In this document: piece after piece, positions 23,192 to 34,915 of the stretch
Position numbering within the stretch: the stretch's first letter is position 1
Layout: each line of letters begins with the position of its first letter
Assembly: GCA_030068145.1 (NCBI GenBank)
Contig: JAPJBO010000763.1
Coordinates: forward strand, 1-64,000
Length of the DNA: 64,000 nt
Direction of reading: 5' to 3'
DNA from: Diplonema papillatum
Lineage: Eukaryota; Euglenozoa; Diplonemea; Diplonemida; Diplonemidae
Notes under the pieces: model-generated
Databases searched by the model: none
Seen by the model: only the letters and a program-made list of their open reading frames with translations
What the model was told of the DNA's origin: nothing
Translations under genes and position numbers: made by a program

Positions 23192-23497
23192 AACACACAC
23201 ACACACACACACACACACACACACACACACACACACACACACACACACACACACACACACACACACACACACACACACACACACACACACACACACACAC
23301 ACACACACACACACACACACACACACACACACACACACACACACACACACACACACACACACACACACACACACACACACACACAACACACACACACACC
23401 ACACACACACAACACACACACACACACACACACACACACACACACACCACACACACACACACACACACACACACACACACACACACACACACACACA
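23192..23497 (+). repeat. (CA)n array 1, intron 2
   Basis: Almost pure CA for about 300 bases, with rare ACCAC/AACAC interruptions near its right end. It starts within the donor region of intron 2. Confidence 0.97.
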
Positions 23498-23863
23498 TAC
23501 TAGCAAGCTTGCTTGAGCGCTGAAGGCGCGTCTAGTGGGATCCACTACGTTCTGTGGATAGGCAATGCATCCCCCACTCGTTACGAGGGTTGGAGGGAGG
23601 ATCACAATCCAACCCACGTCGCAGGCTGGGTGTTGGCCCCCCTTTGGTTGGGTTCCCCTCCCTCTCTCTCTCTTCTTGTGCCATTTTCGGCCCTTTCTAG
23701 CTTGCCTGTTTCCGTTTCCTTTTGTTGCCCTGCATCCCGCAGTTGCTGCGAGGACGTGCACCCGCTGGAGAACGCCAGCGCGAAGCAACCGGCCAGTGTC
23801 GTGGCCAGTGGAGCTGAGACCTCCAGAGACGTCGACAAGTCCATAGAACGGAGTAAGGATCCC
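23498..23863 (+). mobile_element. SINE-like unit T1
   Basis: Starts TACTAGCAAGCTTGCTTGAG and a GCGCT-GAA-GGCGC hairpin, then GTCTAGTGGGATCC. It ends GGATCCCAC running into (CA)n. Units T2 and T3 have the same head and tail. GTGGAATCCC in the head resembles a Pol III B box/T-arm (GGTTCGAATCCC), so a tRNA-derived SINE is suggested but not proved. About 365 bp, no ORF. Confidence 0.5.
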
Positions 23864-24197
23864 ACCACACACACACCACACCACACGACACACCACACAC
23901 ACACACACACACACACACACACACACACACACACACACACACACACACCACACACACACACACACACAACAACACACACACACACACACACACACACACA
24001 CACACACACACACACACACACACACAACCACACAACACACCCACACACACACACACACACACACACACACACACACACACACACACACACCACACACACA
24101 CACACACACCACACACACACACACACACACACACACACACACACACACACACACACACACACACACACACACCACACACACACACACACACACACAC
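23864..24197 (+). repeat. (CA)n array 2, intron 2
   Basis: CA tract with scattered CCA and ACA slips. It is read as the tail of T1 and the target of T2. Confidence 0.95.
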
Positions 24198-24363
24198 TAG
24201 CAAGCTAGCTTGAGCGCCGAAGGCGCGTCAAGTGGAATCCTATCCTGTCCACGAGAAGGGCGATGTATCCTTGTTTTCTCCACTCTTTTACGAGGTTGGA
24301 AAGGCTGGTTGATGCAAACAACGAACAGGCCAAAAAGGAACCGCACTGCCTTACATCTCTTGT

Positions 24364-34265: not shown

Positions 34266-34337
34266 GGATGTTGACAACGTGGGCTATACTCCGCTTCAGG
34301 GGTTACCCGAAATTGAATTCCAACACACACACACACA
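34266..34337 (+). other. LINE 3' UTR and CA tail
   Basis: It contains GGGCTATACTCCGCTTCAGG and ends GAATTCCAA-(CA)8. The same 3' UTR is present in the copy at 18477 on the minus strand. The terminal GATTCCAA-CA is the part shared with the SINE-like units. Confidence 0.7.
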
Positions 34338-34685
34338 TACTAGCAAGCTTGCTTGAGCGCCGAAGGCGCGTCTAGTGGAATCCCATTTCCGTTTCCACCA
34401 TTTGACGTACGCGATGCCTCCTATTTCCACTCTCTAAGAGGTTGGACAGGGGTAGTATTACGCAAACATCCAGGCCGTTTCCCTCTCCGCTGTTTGTACT
34501 CCCCCTTCCCCCTTTCCCGTGTGCCGCCCACGCGGCCCTCTTCTCCTTGTATTGCCGGCCGGCCGCTTTTCCTCGATAACGGTGCTTTATCCTTTTCCCG
34601 CCTTTTAGTCCTGAGTTCTCCCACTGCGAACCATGCCACAAGCGGTCCAGAAGCTCGAAGGACCAGAAACGGAAAGAAAGGGATT
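34338..34685 (+). mobile_element. SINE-like unit T3
   Basis: TACTAGCAAGCTTGCTTGAG, GCGCC-GAA-GGCGC hairpin, GTCTAGTGGAATCCC at the head; AAAGGGATTCCAC then CA at the tail; 348 bp. It is inserted directly in the CA tail of the LINE. It shares CACTCT-TA-GAGGTTGGA with T1/T2 and the CTGTTTGTACTCCCCCTTCC segment where T2 received its insertion. Confidence 0.5.
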
Positions 34686-34915
34686 CCACACACACACACA
34701 CACACACACACACACACACACACACACACACACACACACACACACACACAACAACACACACACACCACACACACAACACACACCACACACACAACACACA
34801 CACACACACACACACACACACACACACCACACACACACACACAACACACACACACACACACACACACACAACACACACACACACACACACACACACCACA
34901 CACACACACACACAC
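34686..34915 (+). repeat. (CA)n array 5, intron 2
   Basis: CA tract with AACAAC and ACCAC interruptions; tail of T3. Confidence 0.95.

Follow-up and report, generated by a model that had tools for sequence, protein, structure and literature searches.

Long (CA)n tracts in the genome of the free-living marine euglenozoan Diplonema papillatum appear to serve as a docking site shared by two different retroelement systems, a (CA)n-specific LINE and a VIPER-like tyrosine-recombinase (YR) retrotransposon with a CA core, a reading to which we attach a probability of roughly 0.7. The anatomy of the units, their flanks, the dinucleotide phase of these flanks, a discrete junction containing one CA, and a contrast in 5' truncation between the two systems can all be read from the sequence and form the basis of this reading. 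A first-pass annotation of the same DNA had proposed an AC-microsatellite-specific LINE accompanied by its SINE. The CA-specific LINE and the one-way chain of that interpretation stand, the identity of its short units (T units) as a SINE does not, and a VIPER/SIRE-like system that has CA as its attachment core, side by side with CA-specific LINEs, is both the better reading and the more surprising one.

The chain lies in the window (the whole stretch of DNA analysed, 64,000 nucleotides in length), where all of its units point in the same direction and follow one another in the order (CA)n-T1-(CA)n-T2-(CA)n-LINE-(CA)-T3-(CA)n, with CA directly 3' of T1, T2, the LINE, and T3 alike:

23193..23497, forward strand: (CA)n tract, starting a few nucleotides past an exon end (GT, resembling a splice site)
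23498..23862, forward strand: T1, a solo A-B unit (SIRE-like) that ends in GGATCC and has a degenerate R site
23863..24194, forward strand: (CA)n tract
24195..26275, forward strand: T2, a VIPER-like element with an internal deletion, ending in GGATTC
24354..24381, forward strand: R, the 28-nt direct repeat at the A/B overlap, first copy in T2
26071..26098, forward strand: R, the identical 28-nt direct repeat, second copy in T2
26276..26594, forward strand: (CA)n tract
26595..34323, forward strand: (CA)n-specific LINE, full-length, ending in GAATTCCA
26622..28448, forward strand: LINE open frame 1, 608 codons, with no Pfam match above cut-off
28449..34265, forward strand: LINE open frame 2, 1938 codons, with OTU cysteine protease, APE-type endonuclease, reverse transcriptase (RT), and RNase H
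34324..34337, forward strand: short CA tract between the LINE and T3, left on the LINE side
34338..34686, forward strand: T3, a solo A-B unit with an R site, ending in GGGATTC
34687..34915, forward strand: (CA)n tract

The order described in the first-pass annotation is confirmed at these coordinates, and the genome-wide pattern, obtained from word searches that cover the 271-Mb D. papillatum assembly, lies far beyond chance. WD40-coding sequence flanks the chain on both sides (22581-23186 upstream, resuming from 36132), so that coding potential would place the chain inside one long intron, and its location in a single intron, as originally claimed, is well supported. Further long tandem arrays occur in the window at 10711-11731 (a 34-nt unit repeated about 30 times), 42447-43500 (a 174-nt unit, about six times), and 47965-48634 (a 42-nt unit, about 16 times). 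The possibility that the CA joins are artefacts of assembly has to be weighed, given that CA arrays collapse easily and that the tracts of the window carry irregular CCA/CAA interruptions; identical flanks and phase recur on many contigs, however, and several tracts are short enough for read-through (15-40 nt), which leaves artefact with a negligible chance of being the explanation.

LINEs that insert into microsatellites are known, Mino and Waldo among them, as are telomere-specific LINEs. The element in the window combines a LINE-type endonuclease and a reverse transcriptase, and its copies lie in one microsatellite type: in Pfam, open frame 2 matches Exo_endo_phos (1.7e-12) and RVT_1 (2e-18), in addition to OTU and RNase H. 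The OTU cysteine protease is situated at the start of this frame, together with the APE-type endonuclease and RNase H, and OTU is also present in the similar proteins P0006 and P0007; a Diplonema papillatum protein named Ribonuclease HI (P0008) is 100% identical to the LINE frame over 32% of the queried region. Genome-wide, the 5' word of the LINE occurs in 23 copies at up to three mismatches, and every one of these heads (23/23) is preceded by (CA)n in a single dinucleotide phase, always CACA followed by GGGG, the shortest CA tract before any of them measuring 18 nt. Its 34-nt 3' word occurs in 236 copies at up to three mismatches, 90 of them exact, and 84 of these 90 exact ends run into CA, the remaining six not doing so. 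The AC-microsatellite-specific LINE postulated at first pass therefore exists.

The 3' joint of the LINE is variable (mostly CCA followed by ACAC, in some cases CC followed by ACAC), its usual form being GAATTCCA followed by ACAC, and a LINE head from among the 23 lies 7.7-8.0 kb upstream of only 16 of the 90 exact tails, with two further exact tails having a head at 4.7 and 14.1 kb upstream. Short 3' pieces of LINE families, measuring 26, 41, 41, 93, and 352 nt, are found between two CA tracts, the position for which these pieces were chosen. A variable 3' joint, frequent loss of the head, and CA flanks are what target-primed reverse transcription (TPRT) into (CA)n would leave, and the LINE probably enters CA tracts by this route. 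Related LINEs whose 3' ends differ, with a protein similarity of mostly 30-77%, likewise run into CA. At one locus (L019, reverse strand, 1592-2936), a LINE 5' end of about 80 nt precedes at least 22 tandem 64-nt units, which include the 3' end of a different CA-LINE family.

Long, identical CA tracts lend themselves to recombination, and the units could be imagined to have inserted anywhere and to have been strung together later by exchange between such tracts. One locus (L052) with three tandem LINE 3' fragments, which have a common 5' boundary and are each followed by CA, resembles a tandem duplication rather than three insertions and speaks for this account. Exchange between tracts would not, however, set one phase and exact ends, and the expected flanks are present at 23 of 23 LINE heads, 84 of 90 LINE 3' ends, and 359 of 375 T heads; single units (e.g., at L032 and L040) are moreover flanked alike. 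We consider this account very improbable.

Elements have entered the CA tracts of earlier elements, as the first-pass annotation supposed. By eye, 14 of the 23 LINE heads were judged to lie in the CA tract behind another element's 3' end, eight of them with LINE coding similarity upstream (L011, L014, L015, L022, L027, L028, L029, and L031), two behind T tails (L016 and L021), and four by tail sequence alone (L009, L010, L023, and L024), and some of the 14 may copy one event, one tail being common to L022-L024 and likewise for L027/L028 and L010/L015. The corresponding share of long CA tracts situated behind element tails, also judged by eye, is nine of 21 resolved tracts in a small census of the first 23 tracts among those listed on contigs C1-C5, which is made up of 20 fetched tracts (six behind tails, two too long to resolve) and three at known loci, all behind tails. 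Measured against this share, landing on element tails is not significantly in excess (14/23 vs 9/21; p = 0.37), and the idea that the LINE prefers element tails to ordinary CA tracts is unsupported.

These figures bear on the model of an AC-specific LINE and its SINE, each of which would renew the target with a (CA)n tail of its own. The presence of CA on either side nearly everywhere and the 14 of 23 LINE copies in the tract behind another element agree with renewal; by contrast, the usual 3' joint of the LINE is equally explained by leftover target CA, landings on element tails show no significant excess over the share of these tails among long CA tracts, and T, as described below, is the repeat of a YR retroelement with no LINE-derived tail. 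The model is thus improbable overall, and for T it fails. Compared with the window's LINE, T1, T2, and T3 show no similarity beyond chance level and have just ATTC(CA)n in common with it, and the 3' end that a SINE would have in common with its partner LINE was not found in T when compared with that LINE. A search of Rfam with positions 23100-35000 at E up to 5 returned no tRNA, 5S, or 7SL RNA match and one miRNA model at chance level. The T head was also considered as a possible ribozyme or known RNA, and this was rejected, Rfam yielding only this chance-level model and three head folds being no better than shuffles (z -0.56 to -0.88). Tails of the T5 family have kept their head, at solo or full distance, in 55 of 67 cases, as opposed to 16 of 90 for the LINE (p = 4e-16). 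T is hence not the SINE of that LINE: it has no sequence in common with it, shows little 5' truncation, and is the solo repeat of a VIPER-like YR retroelement.

As judged from layout and motifs, T is the solo A-B repeat of a YR retrotransposon with the organization A1-gag-YR-RT/RNaseH-B1-A2-B2, built like trypanosome VIPER/SIRE. Long T-headed units carry gag-like, tyrosine-recombinase, and RT/RNaseH frames. In the T5 family, the A1-coding-B1 part measures 4381 nt, and two copies (L041 and L045) are identical over all 4381 positions; the A repeat (178 nt) and the B repeat (252 nt) have 28 nt in common (R, which flanks the coding part), and the solo form of 402 nt matches the element start at 99.4% over its first 178 nt and the element end at 100% over its last 252 nt. 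Within the 4381 nt, a gag-like frame, which lacks a Pfam match and is thus named by its position, extends from 82 to 1444, the integrase match falls in 558-2403, and the RT match falls in 1247-4103, the RT domain lying behind the YR domain. The T5 RT matches RVT_1 above cut-off (5e-14), RVT_3 (RNase H) scores 20.3 bits, just under the Pfam cut-off of 21.6, and the Pfam integrase match, at 16.6 and 18.8 bits, does not reach the cut-off of 27.1; the YR residues R, HxxR, H, and Y are present by motif only (TRARVPDL, HSFR, and LLRH...RY). The predicted fold of the T5 recombinase, made from a three-row alignment, was unusable (pLDDT 42.8). RT with RNase H, YR residues by motif, the order gag-YR-RT/RNaseH, split direct repeats, and a short element equal to A2B2 are the VIPER/SIRE traits found here; no protein named VIPER or TATE is among the protein database matches, the likeness being one of layout and motifs.

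T2 of the window holds the gag-like part and the start of the YR region only, with no RT, and its A (186 nt) and B (206 nt) repeats match the solo T2 of L042 at 99.5% and 100%, respectively. The SINE-like size originally ascribed to the T units does not hold for T2, which derives from a coding element by deletion. That T2 could be a SINE carrying an unrelated insertion was also considered, and was rejected in view of the R direct repeats, the frames for gag, YR, and RT, and solo forms that match.

Genome-wide, 73 heads and 67 tails of T5 were found at up to three mismatches. The head lies at solo distance from 42 of the tails, at full distance (4.3 kb) from 13, and at other distances from five, and seven tails have none within 20 kb; as 13 of the 73 heads are moreover without a tail, some truncation or decay exists. 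The arrangement A1-coding-B1-A2-B2 is present at seven T5 loci (C180, C242, C299, C325, C330, C1022, and C1324), where 4381 nt separate the heads, and the tails are separated by 402-403 nt at six loci and by 558 nt at the seventh; through their A2B2 part, these loci contribute six of the 42 tails that have a head at solo distance. A search with the RT gave at least 49 matches (a lower bound, 48 candidates having been scored), of which 13 are full-length at 100% identity to the query and the rest are near-identical fragments or 36-65% relatives. A tail-head joint lies 225-670 nt behind the RT frame in 15 of these at least 49 matches, in more than one lineage, as detected with a joint pattern that is blind to the T4-type joint (GGATTC-CA-ACCTGG in L044).

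Some further forms of T were observed. The first 45 nt or so of T heads contain a GC-rich hairpin, GCGCC-GAA-GGCGC, the loop of which varies by family (TTC in T4). The unit at L037 (reverse strand, 2689-6524) is an internally deleted chimera, its head and coding part coming from T5 and its R and tail being T4-type. T1 units are arranged tail-to-head across GGATCC-CA-TACTAG at L042, L046, L047, L048, and L051, with heads 454-654 nt apart where both are listed, and resemble short split-repeat elements that have no coding part.

The flanks of T are as regular as its anatomy. Exact T heads number 375 genome-wide (reversed control, 0), of which 299 are preceded by CACACACA and 60 by exactly GGATTC-CA or GGATCC-CA (GGATYC-CA), so that 359 of the 375 fit and 16 fall outside both classes; flanking CA on most copies, which had been predicted as a check, is the rule genome-wide. 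At genomic T sites, CA ends the left flank before TACTAG and CA opens the right flank after GGATTC. For T1, the loci examined have CCACAC in 11 of 17 cases, together with five direct joints and one variant, the counts for T3 and T5 being 8/9 and 3/4; flanks and joint are less regular in the T4 family. Among 37 heads examined, the 32 that sit on CA have a left CA flank of at least 15 nt, the other five being one-CA joints, as if T integration needed a minimum CA-tract length.

The one-CA joint is also the form in which the A1-coding-B1 and A2-B2 parts of a complete element meet, the T5 B1-A2 joint reading GGATTC-CA-TACTAGC in seven of seven fetched copies. Genome-wide, no tail-head joint with 2 to about 10 CA units was found, and since a wider-gap version of the search finds five cases, the shortest with 11 CA units, this zero is not a failure of the tool. 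The 60 one-CA joints against none of intermediate length therefore represent a discrete form and not the end of a shrinking series. An origin of the direct joints from (CA)n contraction between neighbouring T units is ruled out by the same counts.

The anatomy of T leaves room for a hybrid scenario, namely that T is of VIPER-like descent and is now moved in trans by the CA-specific LINE acting on a T RNA that ends in (CA)n. Both systems land in (CA)n with a common phase and have ATTC-CA endings, and the copy numbers of T are SINE-like. Moreover, the ATTC(CA) ending common to T and LINE goes unexplained by independent machineries, which counts against the two-machinery view, and might reflect present or past movement of T by the LINE. 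Against trans-mobilization, T is without sequence common to the LINE, T5 keeps its 5' end far more often than the LINE does (55/67, 13 of them at the 4.3-kb distance, vs 16/90), and the tail-head joint with one CA (60 vs 0) has no obvious place in TPRT. We therefore regard trans-mobilization as unlikely, and return to two systems that share a docking site.

The orientation of neighbouring units conforms to the one-way chain that was first described in the window. Among the 100 of the 375 places that were listed, T heads within 1.5 kb of each other are on the same strand in 21 pairs and on opposite strands in none, and those within 10 kb are on the same strand in 28 and on opposite strands in two. 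Six of the 21 close pairs lie inside one element (one-CA joint), and the 15 that join separately CA-flanked units all have the same orientation.

A mechanism can be proposed for each of the two systems. The APE-type endonuclease of the LINE would nick a CA tract on its TG strand, and the LINE would copy itself in by TPRT, often with 5' truncation. A circle model exists for DIRS elements, and for the YR element we infer that replication yields circular DNA in which the B end meets the A start across one CA (GGATTC-CA-TACTAG). The recombinase would cross the CA of this circle with any CA in a genomic tract, and the product would be an untruncated (CA)n-TACTAG...GGATTC-(CA)n that lacks any duplication. 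In a circle made from the complete element, two B-CA-A joints would be present, exchange between which would release an A1-ORFs-B1 circle and an A2B2 (T) circle, matching the three forms seen. As YR integration would add no CA and merely split the tract, both halves would remain usable; the target would thus not be consumed, one-way chains could accumulate, and either system could enter. We lean slightly towards the most specific version of this scheme, in which the CA dinucleotide is the attachment-site core of the YR retrotransposon, long (CA)n is a multi-copy site that is never destroyed, B1-CA-A2 is a preformed attachment site, solo units are resolved circles, and several LINE families occupy the same tracts.

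The closest parallel is VIPER of trypanosomatids, which has gag-like, YR, and RT/RNaseH parts in this order with split repeats A1...B1-A2-B2, SIRE being A2B2 (PMC6681497). VIPER/SIRE of Trypanosoma cruzi and T5 are alike in domain order, split direct repeats, and a short A2B2 form, with A and B of 173 and 219 bp in T. cruzi Dm28c as compared with 178 and 252 nt in T5 (PMC6681497). The D. papillatum element differs in its (CA)n target and one-CA joint, no (CA)n target being mentioned in the passages of that paper that describe VIPER/SIRE, and T5 differs further in its many identical full copies and its chains with the LINE; for SIRE, Ribeiro et al. did not decide between a mobile element and a remnant (PMC6681497). 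Ngaro/PAT-type DIRS elements of Cafeteria burkhardae likewise have the organization A1-ORFs-B1A2B2 and scattered solo AB repeats, but their ORFs run in the order gag, RT/RH, YR, virophage DNA is favoured by some of the types, and a microsatellite target is not named in the sections concerned (PMC8547959). On the LINE side, Togen of fish resembles the D. papillatum element as a LINE in a dinucleotide repeat, (TG)n, but is treated with families related to NeSL, an RLE clade (PMC4640811), whereas the D. papillatum LINE is euglenozoan and combines APE, OTU, and RNase H. Zepp LINEs of green algae similarly form clusters of nested elements of one family, but with about one cluster per chromosome and, in the relevant part of the source, no microsatellite target or YR partner named (PMC3446292).

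For D. papillatum itself, the genome paper describes intronic transposable elements as well as ORFs resembling LINE-1, jockey, and TATE, and leaves their rigorous identification to the future (PMC10161547), and a 2025 mobilome paper deals with VIPER and TATE in trypanosomatids and cites a low element diversity in Paradiplonema papillatum (PMC12278014). In the excerpts of open-access literature provided by one open library, we found no (CA)n-targeted VIPER-like element, no microsatellite-aimed YR retroelement, and no sharing of a microsatellite between a YR element and a LINE.

To our knowledge, the target choice and joining of YR retrotransposons are poorly known. Joint, target, and recent copies are all readable here, with 13 full-length RT frames at 100% and two identical 4381-nt copies, and the circle/CA-core model is thus directly testable in D. 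papillatum, in which gene replacement has been reported (PMC10161547). If true, the model would account for the one-way mixed retroelement chains inside introns, and the choice of target would let insertions pile up without exhausting their sites. Two unrelated integration chemistries would then share, and preserve, one docking site.
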